Shown: positions 1,454-22,500 of the stretch, one piece after another
Position numbering within the stretch: position 1 is the first letter of the stretch
Layout of the letters: each line of letters begins with the position of its first letter
Origin: a virus
Strand: one strand, 5' to 3'
Length of the DNA stretch: 38,497 bases
Virus record (IMG/VR): IMGVR_UViG_3300007276_000116
Span: 1-38,497 of that record
Made by a program: the position numbers and the translations under genes
The notes under the pieces: generated by a model
Database searches by the model: none
Seen by the model: the letters and a program-made list of their open reading frames with translations, nothing else
What the model was told of the DNA's origin: nothing

Positions 1454-3481
1454 TTAGTGTGTTTCTTTCCAGTTGGCCCCTATGTTGAAGTCAGTATCTA
1501 ACTGACAACTAAAGTTGAAGCGTTCCTGTACATTTCTCATTGCTGTTTGGTATAGCTCACCAAAGTGCTCTGCTATTTCTCGTGTCCTACAAGCTATTTG
1601 GACTTCATCGTGTACCCATGCACATTGCATAAAGTCACCGTCAAGACCATGTTTGTAGCCAGCTTCAAGAGCGAGACGTTCACCTTCAACAATCCATGCT
1701 TTACATATGAGAGCACCCATACCTTGCAGTTTGGTGTTCAATGCAGCGTGTCCACTTCTAGTGAATATCTTTCGACCATCCAGACCACGTATGAAACCTT
1801 GTTCCTTGTGGAGGAGTTTGCAGTCGTCTATGAGTAGCTTAAGAGCAGGTAGTCCTTTCATGAATTTCTTCTGGACTTGCTCACCCTTCATTGTGTTACA
1901 CAAAACGTCACGTAGCTTACTTGAGAGTCTTAGAGGTGGTTTAGAGGGTAACTGTCTGCCCCTGAAGTTGTTGATTCGAGCTAGGACTTTGAGGTGTAGC
2001 CCCTTAGCCTTCCAGCCAAGATATTCCTCTTCAGACCATCCAATTTGTGATCCTGTAAGTTCAGGTCCACATCCGTATAAAAATGCATATATAAAGGTTT
2101 TTGCTTCGTTTCTGGTCATTAAACCAGCGGCTTTTTGATTGGCTACATGTATATCACCATTCAACACAGTGTCTATATAAGCACCATCATCATAGATAGC
2201 CATAGCTTCTGCTAGACATCTAAGCTCAAGGCCAGATGCATCAGAACCAAATAGTACCCAACCATCTGGAACCGTGAATAACTCACGACACTCAGAGCCA
2301 TATGTAGCACTACAGGAAGGAACCTGTGCCACATTAGGAAAACTATGTGTTGCTCTACCTGTTACTGCCCCGTTTGGGTTAATAGAACCACGTATGTACC
2401 CGTCACGATGTACAACATTTAACCAAGCCTGTTTCCCGTCAGATAATTGACCCAAGCGTTTCTGTAATAAGAACCACTCAGCCATTAAAGCAGCCTCAGG
2501 GAATTTCATCTTGTTAAGTATTGTCTCATCAACCTTGGCTTCACCACTGGGGGTAAACTCCATAGGCTCCCACCCTCTCGCTTTAAGCACTCTAATAATA
2601 TGCAAGCGTGATGAGGGATTGAAGTCTACCCATGTGATCTTAGTGAACTTAGCCCCAATGACCCTTGAGGGTGTTAGTGGGTTCTTGTAATTCAAGGTAC
2701 GTGTAGGTTCTACCAACCCATCAGACTTATACCAGCCATTGAAAGTGTTAATCAATTGGTCGTAGATGATCTCTCTACGTGCTGATAGTACTGCAAGTAA
2801 AGACTGAGCCTTACGTTCATCAAACTTGAAACCATTACGCTCTTGATCTGCTAATAACCAAGCAGCTTCATGTTCTAATGTAATAGACTCGCTATAGTTT
2901 AAGTTTTTAATCTGTCTCTCAAGACGCAGGAACAACTCAGTGTTCACTCTGACATCTTGTAAACAGTACTCACCCATCATCGCTGTGAAGGTACTCCCCT
3001 TCCAGCGGGGATCTCGTTTAGGATTCTTAACTGAAGGATCATATACGGGCTGTGCAGGGTCCATCACGGGATGGTATTGCATCTTCAACTGCCCACCCAA
3101 ACGGATACCCCAAGCCTCAAGTGAATGAGAACCATACAGGTATCCCAGTTTATATGGCTTACCACCATCTATATCTTTAATGTTGGACCACACGAGACGT
3201 GTAGCCACTAATGTATCGAAGATCTTGTCTTTAGGCAGGGACTTACCTGTAAGCTTCTTAATGACAGGGTGATCGTATTTGATTAAATTATGACCTATGA
3301 GAAGGTCAGCATTCATTAACTTTTCAACACCGTCCTCAAGTGTACCTTGAGTGTTCATTACTAGAAGGTCAGCGTATAAAGACTCTTCCATTGTGTCCAC
3401 ATCTTGTATTGCTATACAGTGCAGAATAGTCACTTCATCAAGTAGACCATCTGTTTCAATGTCCCATGCATATCTAGCCAT
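1454..3481 (-). CDS. T7 gp5-like family A DNA polymerase with 3'-5' exonuclease
   Basis: 675 residues. The proofreading domain has ExoI (AWDIETDGLL, D7/E9), ExoII (LIGHNLIKYDHPV) and ExoIII (YCLQDVRVNTELF). The polymerase domain has motif A (LFGSDASGLELR), motif B (NEAKTFIYAFLYGCG) and motif C (CAWVHDEVQIA), so all catalytic residues look intact. The stretch between GWYKSDG and FNPSSR, where T7 gp5 carries its thioredoxin-binding loop, is about 37 residues against roughly 70 in T7 as I remember it, so the processivity-clamp site may be reduced or absent. The ATG at 3481 overlaps the helicase stop codon by one base (TAATG), so the two are translationally coupled. Confidence 0.96.
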   Translation of the reverse strand: MARYAWDIETDGLLDEVTILHCIAIQDVDTMEESLYADLLVMNTQGTLEDGVEKLMNADLLIGHNLIKYDHPVIKKLTGKSLPKDKIFDTLVATRLVWSNIKDIDGGKPYKLGYLYGSHSLEAWGIRLGGQLKMQYHPVMDPAQPVYDPSVKNPKRDPRWKGSTFTAMMGEYCLQDVRVNTELFLRLERQIKNLNYSESITLEHEAAWLLADQERNGFKFDERKAQSLLAVLSARREIIYDQLINTFNGWYKSDGLVEPTRTLNYKNPLTPSRVIGAKFTKITWVDFNPSSRLHIIRVLKARGWEPMEFTPSGEAKVDETILNKMKFPEAALMAEWFLLQKRLGQLSDGKQAWLNVVHRDGYIRGSINPNGAVTGRATHSFPNVAQVPSCSATYGSECRELFTVPDGWVLFGSDASGLELRCLAEAMAIYDDGAYIDTVLNGDIHVANQKAAGLMTRNEAKTFIYAFLYGCGPELTGSQIGWSEEEYLGWKAKGLHLKVLARINNFRGRQLPSKPPLRLSSKLRDVLCNTMKGEQVQKKFMKGLPALKLLIDDCKLLHKEQGFIRGLDGRKIFTRSGHAALNTKLQGMGALICKAWIVEGERLALEAGYKHGLDGDFMQCAWVHDEVQIACRTREIAEHFGELYQTAMRNVQERFNFSCQLDTDFNIGANWKETH

Positions 3482-5121
3482 TAGAATTCCTCTGATTTGT
3501 TATTAAAGTTAGCCTCCTCTGTTGTTAATTGTGGGAGTTCATAAAGGCATCCTGTTGCACTGTCGTAGCCAAGTTTAATGACCGTTCCAGTAGATTGACC
3601 CGTGTAGCGATCTTTGAGCACACGGAAGGATGTTGTGGTTTTCTCAACCTGACAGGCAGCTTGCTGGTTACGCTCCATGCCAAACATGAAGTAACTCCAA
3701 TAGCCAATAGCCCTACTGCCTTTGAATTGACGGATGGTCACTCGACCTCCTTCCTCATGAGATTTGCCCTCAGGAGTCGTAAGGTGAGATATAACGTGAA
3801 AGATGAGGCCCATGCGTTGACCTAAGCCAGCGAGTTCACTCATGATGTTTTCTAACTCAGTCTTCTCATCACGGTCACCACCTGTTGCCATTGCGGTCAA
3901 GTGATCTATGAAGAAGTGCTTCACGCCTTTCTCAGCTAGATATATGATTTTAGGCTTCAGTGATTCCCATTGAGTTATCCCAAATGCGTTATACATTGTG
4001 AGGTTCTCCTCTAACCTAGGGTCCATCAGGGTGTTTCTAAGATCCTCAGTAGTCCATCGAGGTTCTTCACCTTCAAGATTAGGTATGTGGAACTGCTTAC
4101 CCGCTATCTTGCCACCTATTCTCTTAGCGGTTTCAACGGGCATCTGCTCCAAATAAAATACCCCCACTGGCACATTAAGTACTAGACAGTCGTATGCTAT
4201 TTGTTGAGTAAAGAAGTCAGTCTTACCCATACCTGTACCCGCACCTAATGTGTATATCTCAGCAGGTCTGCGACCATATGTGCACTTAGTTAGCGTGGGT
4301 AGAAACCAAGGTGCTCCCATTAGCGTTGGCTTCAGAGCTTCTTCCATTATGTCTGACATAGATACAAGACCATCAGGTTTGTATTCCTTGGCATTCCACA
4401 TGGCATTGATAAGTTCTTCAGTACGTCCTGCTAAGAGCATTTCGTTGGCATCTTTTAAAGGTAAAGACATCAGCTTCACATTCTTACCCATGAGCAGATC
4501 AGCACACTCAATAGCAGCTATCTGCCCTACTTCATCCATATCAAAGCAGAGAAGAATCTCTTCAAAGTTACTGAGGTATTCGAGGTTTGTTGCTATTACT
4601 TTCTTTGCGGAACTAACACCGTTGGGGAGGCTAACTACTGGATACTTATTAGACTGTACTTGAGACATTGTGAGCATATCAATTTCACCCTCAACAATGA
4701 CAATCTTACGACCACCTGAGAAGAGATGCATACCCACTAGAGGCTTTTCTTCAAGACTCCCAATGACCCTAAAGTCTTTGTCACGAGTCCTAATTTTCTG
4801 AGCTACATATGTACCATCTGCGAGCTTAACGTCACACGCTTGGGCTGTCTCATTATTGTATTGGATGATCTTATAACCGTACTTCTTACATGTTTCCTCG
4901 CGGATACCACGCTTACGTAGTGCTGTGCTTTCTCCTAGTATGGGGCTAAAGGTCTTAGATGTTTGGTTGGTGGGTTTGTATACGACACCTCCTGTAGGTG
5001 ATTCTTTGTGTTCACAACCAGCAGAATAACAGTGAGCATGACCATCATCGTATCGAGCTAAGTTATTCTTTGAACCGCATGCGGGGCATGACTCTTTGTA
5101 TAAATAGCCTGATTCTGACAT
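3481..5121 (-). CDS. T7 gp4-like primase-helicase
   Basis: 546 residues (T7 gp4A has 566), a bifunctional replisome protein that makes RNA primers and unwinds DNA as a hexamer. A zinc-binding domain is seen at residues 12-36 (C12, C15, C31, C36). A Toprim primase domain follows, with KIVIVEGEIDML and LLCFDMDEVGQ carrying the catalytic acidic residues. The RecA-like helicase domain has Walker A GAGTGMGKTDFF and a Walker B-like HFFIDHL. ATG at 5121 is preceded by AAGGTGAG. It sits between RusA and the DNA polymerase, so the core replisome genes are contiguous. Confidence 0.96.
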   Translation of the reverse strand: MSESGYLYKESCPACGSKNNLARYDDGHAHCYSAGCEHKESPTGGVVYKPTNQTSKTFSPILGESTALRKRGIREETCKKYGYKIIQYNNETAQACDVKLADGTYVAQKIRTRDKDFRVIGSLEEKPLVGMHLFSGGRKIVIVEGEIDMLTMSQVQSNKYPVVSLPNGVSSAKKVIATNLEYLSNFEEILLCFDMDEVGQIAAIECADLLMGKNVKLMSLPLKDANEMLLAGRTEELINAMWNAKEYKPDGLVSMSDIMEEALKPTLMGAPWFLPTLTKCTYGRRPAEIYTLGAGTGMGKTDFFTQQIAYDCLVLNVPVGVFYLEQMPVETAKRIGGKIAGKQFHIPNLEGEEPRWTTEDLRNTLMDPRLEENLTMYNAFGITQWESLKPKIIYLAEKGVKHFFIDHLTAMATGGDRDEKTELENIMSELAGLGQRMGLIFHVISHLTTPEGKSHEEGGRVTIRQFKGSRAIGYWSYFMFGMERNQQAACQVEKTTTSFRVLKDRYTGQSTGTVIKLGYDSATGCLYELPQLTTEEANFNNKSEEF

Positions 5122-6190: not shown

Positions 6191-6748
6191 TTAGCTCATC
6201 AAGGTCTCTTCAAGCTCAATGACAGCTTCAGTCAACTCAGATAATGCTGTCTGATATTCAGGACTTTCATCAATGCATGCGATAGCAAGGACTGTGTCCA
6301 TAGCTCCTGTGACTGTGTCGATAGGTCCACGGAACTTATTCCTAATGCGTAATTCAATAACGCTTGAGTCCACGAATATCTTCTTTGCTTTAGCAATAGC
6401 TAATGCGTCACGTTCTTCTTGGTCTTGTTCAGCTTTCTCCATCTCGTCACATCTCTTAAGTATTGCCCAGCGCATCGCTACTAAATCAGAGACCATTTTG
6501 TGATCAGTTAGATTCTTGACTGAGTCAACTTGATAACGACCAGAGTCAACGTCAGCTAGCGCCAAGAACGCTCTTGATTTCTTGTAAGGACCTAGCAGTC
6601 CAGTTAAGCGTTTAAGAGCGTTGTCGTGTTTCTGGATGGTGCTTAGGGGGGTATCTAAAAGGATTGATACTTCTTCCACATTGTGGTCTTCCCGTAAACG
6701 TAGAAACATCAATGCGCGTTGTTTTTTAATTGTGTGCTTGTTATCCAT
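6191..6748 (-). CDS. Unknown protein with an N-terminal HTH-like segment
   Basis: 185 residues; I do not recognise a family. Residues 10-45 (RALMFLRLREDHNVEEVSIL and then STIQKHDNALKRL) look like a helix-turn-helix: a helix, a turn with hydrophobic spacing, and a recognition-like helix. The middle is a charged helix rich in Glu, Gln and Lys. The C-terminus is a Glu-rich helix. ATG at 6748 has GGAG about eight bases upstream. It is the first gene after a terminator and a candidate phage promoter, so it leads the replication operon and may be a regulator or a replication accessory protein. Confidence 0.6.
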   Translation of the reverse strand: MDNKHTIKKQRALMFLRLREDHNVEEVSILLDTPLSTIQKHDNALKRLTGLLGPYKKSRAFLALADVDSGRYQVDSVKNLTDHKMVSDLVAMRWAILKRCDEMEKAEQDQEERDALAIAKAKKIFVDSSVIELRIRNKFRGPIDTVTGAMDTVLAIACIDESPEYQTALSELTEAVIELEETLMS

Positions 6749-6846: not shown

Positions 6847-7872
6847 TTAGAATTCTAAAGCGAGGTCAGACAGGATAAGCAACAAATCGTTTTTCTTTGC
6901 GGGACTCAATAAGCTAAACATTGTGACGATAGAAGAACTAGCTTCATCATCATTAGATATTACTCCAAGAGCAGGAGATTCTACCTGTTGCATTTTAACC
7001 TTAGGTTTTTTTGCAACACTCTCTTTGGTTTCCCAAGGATTCTCTACAGGAGTCACTGAAGTACAATGAGTGAATACGCTGGTGGGTTCTTCAGACTGTT
7101 GCATTTGCGTCACTGACGTTTTTGCAACACCTTCAACTTCAGATTCTTCAGACTGTTGCATTTGCGTCACTGACGTTTTTGCAACACCTTCAACTTCAGA
7201 TTCTTCAGACTGTTGCATTTGCGTCACTGACGTTTTTGCAACACCTAAGATTCTATTCACTGTAGCAACATCACAACATACAATATCTGCAATATCACGC
7301 TGGGAATGACCATCTACATCAAACTTCAGTATATCCATGTCACGTGTAGACTTTAGACGACCACGTAGAATACTTGTTTGTCGTTCATAGGTGCGTGAAG
7401 AACAATTGACAGCCTTCATAATAGCTTTCTTGTTAAGTTGATATCTGTTGTGCATGAACATCATCTTTTCAGCGTCAAGTATCGCATTGATAGCAGACTT
7501 AATATCATTCTGCTGACGTTTTAGCCCATGTGATCCATTAACACCCGCAGCAGCAATAACAGCTTCACCTATTGTGTCGTACTGTACGTAGTCAACATCT
7601 ACAACTTCGAGGTCTAAGTGAGATACGTCTGGTGCATCTTCCTCATCCTTAAATAAATCTGAAGCTAGCCACTCTATAGCTCGCAGTCTATGGAACCCGT
7701 CGATTGGGACCAGCTTGTCACTTCCCTTGATAGCAGCTACCAGTGGTTTGTGTTGGAATGCACCTGTATCAGCATATATATACGCTAGTTCTCTCACATG
7801 GTGCATAGACTCTCCTAGAACACGCAATTGAGTAGGAGCTTGAAGGTCGATTGTTTTCATTAGTATTTTCAT
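6847..7872 (-). CDS. ParB-like DNA-binding protein carrying embedded palindromic repeats
   Basis: 341 residues from the ATG at 7872, chosen because AGGGA lies about eight bases upstream; an in-frame ATG 14 codons earlier lacks such a site. Residues about 20-100 are a ParB/sulfiredoxin-type N-terminal domain with the signature VPIDGFHRLRAIEWLA. A helix-turn-helix follows (HSQRDIADIVCCDVATVNRI, near residues 187-206). Immediately after it the protein has three tandem 19-residue units (GVAKTSVTQMQQSEE plus SEVE) and a fourth diverged unit (VAKKPKVKMQQ). Each unit encodes a 31-bp DNA palindrome. Family members bind centromere sites for DNA partition or act as regulators. No ParA partner is visible. 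It has its own promoter upstream and a terminator downstream, so it is a single-gene unit. Confidence 0.82.
   Translation of the reverse strand: MKILMKTIDLQAPTQLRVLGESMHHVRELAYIYADTGAFQHKPLVAAIKGSDKLVPIDGFHRLRAIEWLASDLFKDEEDAPDVSHLDLEVVDVDYVQYDTIGEAVIAAAGVNGSHGLKRQQNDIKSAINAILDAEKMMFMHNRYQLNKKAIMKAVNCSSRTYERQTSILRGRLKSTRDMDILKFDVDGHSQRDIADIVCCDVATVNRILGVAKTSVTQMQQSEESEVEGVAKTSVTQMQQSEESEVEGVAKTSVTQMQQSEEPTSVFTHCTSVTPVENPWETKESVAKKPKVKMQQVESPALGVISNDDEASSSIVTMFSLLSPAKKNDLLLILSDLALEF
6987..7017 (-). repeat. Diverged 31-bp palindrome inside the parB-like gene
   Basis: Same 31-bp layout as the other sites: outer arms GTTGCA/TGCAAC and T-rich spacers. The inner palindrome is AACCT-T-AGGTT instead of CGTCA-C-TGACG. 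Both versions are perfect inverted repeats, so five positions on one arm changed together with their partners. It encodes VAKKPKVKMQQ, aligned without gaps to VAKTSVTQMQQ of the tandem copies. Confidence 0.8.
7098..7242 (-). repeat. Three tandem copies of a 31-bp nested palindrome in the parB-like gene
   Basis: Sites at 7098-7128, 7155-7185 and 7212-7242 are identical and spaced exactly 57 bp, which is 19 codons. Each reads, on the plus strand, GTTGCA-TTTG-CGTCA-C-TGACG-TTTT-TGCAAC: a 6-bp outer inverted repeat and a 5-bp inner one around a single central base, separated by four non-pairing bases on each side. The tandem array lies directly downstream of the helix-turn-helix codons. The same element recurs outside the gene at 8350-8380 and 8406-8436, so it is a DNA signal rather than only a protein repeat. 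Confidence 0.9.
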
Positions 7873-8006
7873 TTTGATTAATCCCTGACTATTAGAAGAA
7901 AAAAGAAAGAACATTTAGATACATTAAGATACTTAAGGTATTCATTAGGGCATCTATATGTAGTTACATGTTGTTGTTGTTAATAAGAGTTAGTAATTCT
8001 TACTCT

Positions 8007-19552: not shown

Positions 19553-22500
19553 TTATCTGACCGTTAAGCCAGAGCTTGCCCGTTTCGTATCATCTACATC
19601 ACTACGTACAAACGAAGAAGCATGGAGTCCATCAACCATGTCAGAGTTTAGACCTGAGCCAGCACCATCATTGAAGTCAGTCCATAGCTTCTGCCAAGTA
19701 CCAACACCATTACTGGGTGTATTTCTAATGTAGGCACTAGAGCCACCACCATTTTGTATCACGAGGTCCAAACCATAACGACTACCTGTATGGTTATTTC
19801 TGTGACCAGACTTTAAGCCCCAGTACCAACCCGTTGAAGGAGCATTCGCTGCATTCTCTCCCTCATAGAAACCACTTCTCCAGTTTGCATTCCAATCTGA
19901 TGTGGTTGCAGGATCATCAGCTAGAATGGATTTAGTTGTTTGTATAGCTCCAGTTAAACTACCTCCTGTTAACGGAAGTGCTGCTGCTGGCTTATTACTG
20001 AAATTATTGTAGTTCAAATAATAAGAGCCTTCTTCACCATTCAGAAGTGTAGCCGCACCCGCCTGACCACCACCTTCGACTGTCTGTGATGCAGATGCTG
20101 ACGTTAACCAGCCACTGGTATGCGAGCCAGCATTGTGAGTAACAGTGTACTTAACCTGTACATCGCCTCCCAATGTGATCGCAGCGGGTGTGGTATTGCC
20201 TACATAGTTTATACTAATAGACGAACTCGTTCCCACTCCACTTTCAGTCTCTGTGAAACCACTATACATTTGATTGTGAATAGTTGAGTACGCAGTATAA
20301 TTACCCTCACCTGTTACAGCGCGGGTTCTTACGTTAACAGTCAGAGTCCAATCTGGTCGAACTGTGGTTGTGTCCCAGTAATCACTATTAAATCTAACTG
20401 CCAAAGTCAACTCACTAGTATTAACGTTAGTCATAGTTACAATAGCGGTTATAGGAGATACACCTGAAGCTGTTGCTGCTGTGAAAGATCCACCTGTTGC
20501 ACCTTCTGAAATTGGAGCCTTTATCTGGGACCAAATCGAAGGACTGAACATACTAAGATTATCTATAGTATTGTCAGCAAGACCACCCGACAGTTGTAGC
20601 TTGTTATTAGCATCAAAGCTTAATACATCAGATGTACCATCATTGATAACTAGAGGTGAGTTTGCAGCAGAATCAATCGTGACTTTTCTTGCTGAAGTAG
20701 CATTAGAGACTTCAAGTTTACCACCTATTAAAGTAGCTCCCGTGATGGTCCCTGTGGCTGTTATATCCTTAGTAAAGACATCATCAACATCAATTGCATC
20801 TGCTCTAACAGTCCCTTGTACAATGAGATTACCATCGATTACTTCAGCAACATCTTCCCAACTGTTACCATCCCAATACTTAGTCTTAGAGAATTTATCA
20901 CCGCTACTAGATATAGTAACTATGTCCCATCTCACGAGTTCATCACTTTGACTATATAATATATAGTTTGATGCAGCAGTATCACTCCAAACAGAACCAG
21001 CTATGTAGTAATGTTTAGCACCCTTTACACCAGTTTCACCTTTGATTTCAGTACCACCACTACAAGACCAAACACCACCGTTGACGTTAGTACAAGTACG
21101 TAGGAACCTATCACCAGTTGCGGGAGCATCGTGCCATAAAGTTGTCCCATTTAGCGAGAACTCTACTTTAGAACCATTACCTGTAAGACCAGTTTCACCT
21201 TTGATTAAAGTTGAACCATTACATGTCCAAGCACCACCATCAACGTTAGTACATGTACGTAGGTATTTGTCACCAGTAGCAGGAGCATCGTGCCACAGCG
21301 TTGAACCAGTTATAGAGAACTCAGTCTTAAGACCATTTCCCGTCTTACCAGTTTCACCTTTAACTAAAGTTGCACCATTACATGTCCAAGCACCACCGTT
21401 GACGTTGCTACAAGTGCGCATATATGCATCACCAGTTGCAGGAGTTGCATGCCATAAAGATGTCCCATTTATAGAGAACTCTACTTTAGAACCAATACCT
21501 GTGTCTCCAGTTTCACCTTTAACTAAAGTTGCACCATTACATGTCCAAGCGCCACCGTTGACGTTACTACAAGTGCGCATATATGCATCACCCGTTGCAG
21601 GAGTTGCATGCCATAAAGTTGTCCCATTTAGCGAGAACTCTACTTTAGAACCATTGCCTGTTATACCTGTAGCTCCATACTTAGCACCCAACACAGATGT
21701 TAAGTTTTCAGTCACGGTGACACCCGCATAAGTAAACTCAGCAGATATGGCGGGTGTACCTGTTCCTGAAACATTGTATGTAACTTCAGCATCACCAGAG
21801 ATTGTTCCTGCAGTGATATTACCGTTAGCAGCCCGTGTGAAGTTTATAGTTTTAGTCTTGACAGCGGAACCATTGCTATAGAAGGTAGCTACAAGATTAC
21901 TTGCTGTTACCGTGGGTGACCATGCACCTGAAGTATTCAATGCAGTGTCAGGTGTTTGTACCCAAGTTAAGGGACCTGACGCATTCACTGAACCATAAAT
22001 GGCATGACCCCCATCAGCGACATCTATCAATGATATTGAGTCTAAAACTGATCCACTTGTCCCATCTTTCAATGTGACTATTAATGAGTTAGTGATATCA
22101 CTAGTAGTATACGTCTGGCTATAACCGTTAGCTGTAGCTCCAGCAAATAACTCAATAGTCCCACTGGTTATTATTTCATCAGAACCACCTGTCACTTTGT
22201 GCGCTTCAAGTTGTATAGACCCTGAACCATTTATAATCGCTGTACCCGTTAAGGGTTTAATGTAGTAATACACTGGGATTGATGGTGACACGTAGCTCAT
22301 CAATGTTGATGCACTGTATGTGAGGCTAGTTTTACTGAAAGTATCAAAGTGAGCGACTTTAACATATCTATCTGTGACGTTAGGTAATGTGTAGTTATAC
22401 AAATAGAATGACTCAGCACCCAATGTAGCAACTCGCGTTGTACCATCAGGAGTGAAGTCTGAAGCTGTACCCACATGGATTTCACTACCCGCGAAGTCTC

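Follow-up and report, generated by a model that had tools for sequence, protein, structure and literature searches.

What is a tandem array of long palindromes doing inside the coding sequence of a phage DNA-binding protein? The question arises in a 38,497-bp stretch of DNA (hereafter the window), which is a complete virus record in itself. The virus is a temperate bacterial phage with nearly every gene on the - strand. It encodes T7-type genes for RNA polymerase (RNAP, in two frames), SSB, RusA, primase-helicase, DNA polymerase A and an exonuclease, together with a tailed-phage structural set and a serine integrase, which points to chromosomal lysogeny. The gene at issue codes for a ParB/KorB-like protein and comprises four nested palindromes, and two more lie in the non-coding gap between this gene and that of the RNAP:

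6847..7872, - strand: ParB/KorB-like gene, 341 aa from the ATG at 7872; the open frame reaches 7914
7212..7242: nested palindrome 1, in the coding sequence of the ParB-like protein
7155..7185: nested palindrome 2, in the coding sequence, identical to palindrome 1
7098..7128: nested palindrome 3, in the coding sequence, identical to palindromes 1 and 2
6987..7017: nested palindrome 4, in the coding sequence, outer arms exact, with another perfect inner palindrome (AACCT-T-AGGTT)
8350..8380: non-coding copy A, in the RNAP-ParB gap, identical to palindromes 1-3, inverted relative to the gene
8406..8436: non-coding copy B, in the RNAP-ParB gap, outer arms GATGCA/TGCATC (a symmetric change), inverted relative to the gene

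On the + strand, the 31-bp site reads GTTGCA-TTTG-CGTCA-C-TGACG-TTTT-TGCAAC, an arm geometry of 6-4-5-1-5-4-6. Three identical sites at a spacing of 57 bp, beginning directly past the helix-turn-helix (HTH) codons, a fourth diverged site and the recurrence of the element in nearby non-coding DNA had all been described in a first-pass annotation, and all were found again. The spacers (TTTG/TTTT) are not palindromic, which corrects that description, and the outer arm really measures 7 bp (TGTTGCA/TGCAACA). Palindromes 1 and 2 are identical across the full 57-bp unit. Coding and non-coding copies are identical over 35 bp, ending one base past the palindrome, and are wholly different from there on. 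As the identity stops at the palindrome edge, the palindrome itself is the thing that was copied or selected. Copies A and B lie 56 bp apart. They sit just past the RNAP stop, with no obvious promoter there, at about 1.1 kb from the in-gene cluster.

A scan of every 31-mer in the window for the 6-4-5-1-5-4-6 geometry returned six perfect hits (11/11 arm pairs) and no others, all of them within 1.5 kb, in or beside the ParB-like gene. Thirty Markov-shuffled windows contained zero perfect nested palindromes, and sites with 10/11 pairs occurred at only 0.4 per window. With the amino acids fixed and codons drawn by this phage's usage, the probability of an equally palindromic synonymous sequence comes to 3.5e-5 in the main unit and to 1.2e-3 in palindrome 4; the inner palindrome of site 4, taken alone, gives 0.04, which is weak evidence. 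Since the palindromes exceed the synonymous expectation, the DNA is constrained, or was freshly copied, beyond its protein meaning, and codon choice alone is excluded as their source. The earlier claim that selection acts on the DNA as well as on the encoded peptide is supported by the scan and shuffles, the codon null and the abrupt end of the identity, with copying added to selection as a possible cause.

Copying without function would correspond to a selfish palindromic repeat or a mere tandem duplication: a palindromic unit would have entered in frame, multiplied as a 57-bp stretch and been kept perfect through template switching. The likeness of palindromes 1 and 2 over all 57 bp is as expected from a recent duplication, template switching can render palindromes perfect, and the repeats of related proteins vary in copy number, so the linker tolerates repeats. 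Yet the two non-coding copies are spaced almost as in the gene (56 bp), with unrelated sequence separating them, and the site patterns do not occur again in the window, IMG/VR, 50,697 phage records or 72,556 plasmids, which gives no sign of a mobile family. We consider such a functionless origin improbable. A mobile palindromic element of the RPE/REP/MITE type is likewise not supported, as these searches gave no copies in unrelated loci or genomes.

The sites may instead act as hairpins (in RNA, or in extruded or single-stranded DNA) that serve processing, stalling or recombination, with a 7-bp outer stem, an A-rich internal loop and a 4-5-bp inner stem. Complementarity survives sequence change both in the outer arm at 8406 and in the inner arm at 6987, and the predicted folds reach -10 to -15 kcal/mol for RNA (z -2.9 to -5.7) and -7 to -9 for DNA. 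These symmetric changes would fit hairpins or template-switch correction of palindromes as well as they fit protein binding, and count to that extent against the latter. However, the internal loops would be unpaired and the inner loop has three bases only, an Rfam search of the sites gave no match, and the P value of 0.04 for the inner palindrome of site 4 applies here as well. Moreover, the non-coding copies have the opposite orientation with respect to the operon, such that the two transcripts would show different loops; the reversed orientation suits a palindromic duplex site and not a sense RNA element. A hairpin function thus appears rather unlikely to us.

A duplex site would call for a binding protein, and the domain plan of the encoded protein bears on this. 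A ParB/sulfiredoxin-type N domain is predicted to be followed by two HTH motifs, a disordered repeat linker and C-terminal helices:

7369..7431 (approximate limits), - strand: first HTH, residues about 148-168, helices 148-155 and 159 onward in the low-confidence model
7243..7311, - strand: second HTH, residues about 188-210, stopping where palindrome 1 starts
6859..6948, - strand: C-terminal helical pair, presumed dimer domain, residues 309-338 in the low-confidence model

The protein matches phrog_26063, a family of unknown function (E=2.8e-12). Its structure could be modelled only poorly (mean pLDDT 49), and Foldseek with this low-confidence model retrieves Spo0J, Noc and KorB at a probability of about 1 and an E-value of 5e-3. 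A better model, of a relative, retrieves KorB, pNOB8 ParB, ParB and Noc with E-values down to 2e-6, and TIGR00180 is found in a relative at 8e-6, below the curated cut-off. The first-pass call of a ParB-like protein is thereby upheld and may be phrased as ParB/KorB-like: the models place the protein, with its predicted ParB/sulfiredoxin-type N domain, in the ParB/KorB/Noc superfamily. The first HTH has a counterpart in a relative's model (helices 139-146 and 150 onward). The second (helices 191-198 and 202 onward in the window model) coincides with a sub-threshold Pfam HTH_23 at residues 187-209 (20 bits vs 24.6). The models of the window protein and of the relative both have the N domain, the two HTHs and the C-terminal helices, and in both the repeat-bearing linker is predicted to be disordered (pLDDT about 25-40). 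The usual ParB plan consists of an HTH, a flexible linker and a dimer domain (PMC5002424), which the predicted plan, with its presumed dimer domain, resembles. As the members of the KorB/Noc/Spo0J fold class are site-specific DNA-binding regulators, the fold supports the reading that the protein binds the sites in its own gene.

A ParB fold with palindromes clustered near the gene is also compatible with a parS-like partition centromere, and the gene had at first been proposed to be its own centromere. That proposal is now disfavoured, and we judge it very improbable. A ParA-type ATPase (PF13614) is absent from the window and four relatives, with a control found in 14 of 14 genomes, and a Walker-A motif search in six frames of the window yielded none either. 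The chromosomal lysogeny suggested by the serine integrase is a further objection, neither the gene nor its relatives were found on plasmids, and phage VpV262 has a ParB-like gene with no sign of partition use (and with no in-gene array). Because of the integrase, the missing ParA and the lack of a plasmid relative, self-regulation or the organising of a region is favoured over partition. KorB, Noc and Spo0J, among the best PDB fold matches, share the ParB N domain and, as far as predicted, the HTH, linker and C-terminal domain with the window protein, which differs in having no ParA, sites far longer than the 16-bp parS and apparently a second HTH. In B. subtilis, spo0J does contain parS, the binding site of its own protein, inside the gene; it is one of several chromosomal parS sites, with no tandem array coding for a repeat linker.

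The surroundings of the array comprise the following elements:

10553-11212, - strand: T7-like RNAP, N part, 219 aa, phrog_414 positions 8-194
8448-10478, - strand: T7-like RNAP, C part, 676 aa, phrog_414 positions 204-816
8295..8325: inverted repeat AAATAGGG...CCCTATTT, just below the non-coding sites
8210..8253, - strand: two tandem 22-bp repeats, TTACTATGTGTACA(T/G)CAGTTGA on the + strand, in the AT-rich RNAP-ParB gap
6191-6748: gene of an HTH protein, next downstream of the ParB-like gene

The ParB-like gene (7872-6847) adjoins the polymerase gene on its downstream side. The polymerase split is reminiscent of phage N4, whose polymerase has two subunits, and is not an assembly error, as it is kept in the relatives L007 (216 + 724 aa), L009 (231 + 758 aa) and L010 (by tblastn). 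GC content falls to 24-33% at 7850-8050 (24-26% at 7850-8000) and to 29-31% at 8200-8350, compared to 38-44% over the in-gene array (6950-7300), which lies about 600 bp from the AT-rich stretch at 7850-8000. The inverted repeat at 8295 is terminator-like by eye and is missing from the list of a terminator scan. TGTACA is enriched at 8082-8345 (5 of its 16 occurrences in the window), partly within the 22-bp repeats, and this part of the gap might serve some other factor as an operator or promoter. Elsewhere in the window, a 1703-aa tail tip/host-specificity-like protein carries three 159-bp (53-residue) repeats at 21029-21646, 77-78% alike, with the pattern GDxYxRTCxNVxGGxWxCNGxTxxKGETG.

The window ParB-like protein as a query found no relative among phages, plasmids and IMG/VR; the RNAP found no close kin in IMG/VR; a DNA polymerase scan of 80 loci revealed no ParB-like gene outside the already known group; and a scan of genome contigs gave nothing useful. 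Four IMG/VR prophage records were reached via the RusA neighbour, one of which (L008) is cut inside parB. All four share the gene order RNAP, ParB, HTH protein, SSB, RusA, primase and DNA polymerase; their contigs, possibly incomplete ones, show no integrase. With an identity of about 24% to the window protein, the ParB-like proteins of these records carry a tandem repeat directly past the second HTH, in 15- or 20-residue units around FSQMA with 2-3 copies (at least one unit being visible in the cut record). The nested palindrome is absent from both the gene and the gap of these relatives. Homologues that keep the 19-residue repeat and lose the palindrome had been named in the first-pass annotation as speaking against its reading, and the relatives correspond to this in part: a tandem repeat without nested palindrome does stand at the same linker position, but the repeat itself is a different one. 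The repeat linker thus belongs to the family at large, and the nested palindrome to this phage alone.

Both observations bear on whether the protein binds its own gene, for which the lack of a nested palindrome in the relatives counts against and the presence of tandem units at exactly the same place, with a core of their own (GCCA-AA-TGGC), counts in favour. This core is found nowhere else in the relatives' contigs, and between L007 and L009 the synonymous conservation of codons is somewhat higher within the repeats (16/18 vs 140/219 elsewhere, P=0.02). It is partly dictated by the S-Q-M-A codons and hence merely hints at in-gene sites in the relatives.

The relatives display some further elements. 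A motif of about 40 nt (TCAAATAGTTCACTATCGTTATTGATTC...) comes directly behind three genes of L007, those of the RNAP N part, of the RNAP C part and of ParB (995-1034, 3375-3414, 4606-4645), and behind the latter two in L009 and L010. These are candidate phage-polymerase promoters; in the gaps of the window the motif is not above shuffles. A conserved inverted repeat (GTTGCCTCT...AGAGGCAAC, loop of about 55 bp) lies in the pre-parB gap (L009:3540-3612, L007:3438-3511). Directly upstream of parB, L009 (3664-3694) and L010 (3666-3696) have a 31-bp near-nested palindrome (6+4 of 11 pairs; outer CCTTAA...TTAAGG, inner TCTT-A-AAGA), possibly their own operator. It was dropped as supporting evidence because it is non-concentric in L007 and overlaps the ribosome-binding site.

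The sites look like those of the ParB-like protein or of a neighbouring one. A candidate for the latter is the downstream HTH protein, for which the ParB-like gene would be a mere host of the sites. Its gene has an HTH and stays beside parB in all four relatives, but nothing ties the specificity of this protein to the site, and the palindromes cluster in and above parB and not at its own gene. We find the assignment to another DNA-binding protein of the phage quite improbable.

Our preferred reading, to which we assign a probability of about 50%, is that the six palindromes are candidate binding sites of the two-HTH ParB/KorB-like protein itself, for self-regulation and/or for organising a control or origin region. 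The half-site elements TGTTGCA and CGTCA start 11 bp apart, about one helical turn, which places them on one face of the DNA. All four elements of a site could be occupied by a dimer in which each monomer contributes two HTHs, a correspondence that we infer. Four sites are encoded in frame in the predicted flexible linker running from the DNA-binding region to the presumed C-terminal dimer domain, and the other two flank the far side of the RNAP-ParB gap. With both clusters occupied, the AT-rich gap and the parB start may be looped or covered. The protein could thereby limit its own early operon, through repression or looping, and/or organise a control or origin region beside the RNAP gene, as lambda O does on its iterons. 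Against binding by the ParB-like protein count the poor structure model, the location of the non-coding copies away from an obvious promoter, and the spacing of 56/57 bp, which amounts to about 5.4 turns and no whole number.

The in-frame linker array had been thought new, but the lambda O gene already has the origin iterons arranged in this way. In the lambda record, gene O contains four annotated iterons, which are O-binding inverted repeats located mid-gene (PMC7466680; PMC3349717), and in Stx phages two extra iterons add 13 residues to O (PMC7466680). As in the window, tandem inverted repeats thus occur in the middle of the coding sequence of a DNA-binding protein (the binder in lambda, the candidate binder here), and their copy number can change in frame. 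In contrast, lambda O has no likeness to ParB. The iterons in its gene measure 18-19 bp, are imperfect and spaced at 20-24 bp (compared to nested sites of 31-33 bp at 57 bp here), and adjoin an AT-rich tract, which in the window is about 600 bp away from the array. The window also differs in its further site copies in non-coding DNA and its T7-type replication genes. The AT-rich tract that does not adjoin the array, together with these replication genes, argues against a lambda-type origin. StrR-like regulators offer another comparison, as their targets are long spaced inverted repeats; they occur in actinobacterial antibiotic clusters, unlike the window phage, and we know of no in-gene site array among them. 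These transcription regulators combine an N-terminal ParB-like domain with an HTH and C-terminal helices (PMC10886168).

A self-binding array in frame inside the middle of a protein is therefore already known in kind from lambda O. What is new is that the gene with the array encodes a ParB-fold protein, that the site is long and nested, and that identical copies occur in an adjacent non-coding gap. A more general view, which we hold to be doubtful, is that in temperate phages with a split T7-like RNAP an orphan two-HTH ParB-fold protein targets its own linker-coding repeats. Array and DNA-binding domain would then co-evolve by in-frame tandem duplication, with copies exported to the control region, so that each lineage would have its own repeat and its own site. 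If the ParB-like protein binds the sites, the lambda O arrangement would have another, unrelated example, with a flexible linker written in the sites that the protein itself targets. Such a case would illustrate the making of a linker from duplicated binding sites and allow dual coding, for protein and for DNA, to be tested in a compact system. A function would moreover be suggested for orphan ParB-like proteins, which occur commonly in phages and in many cases receive the label 'partition' by default.
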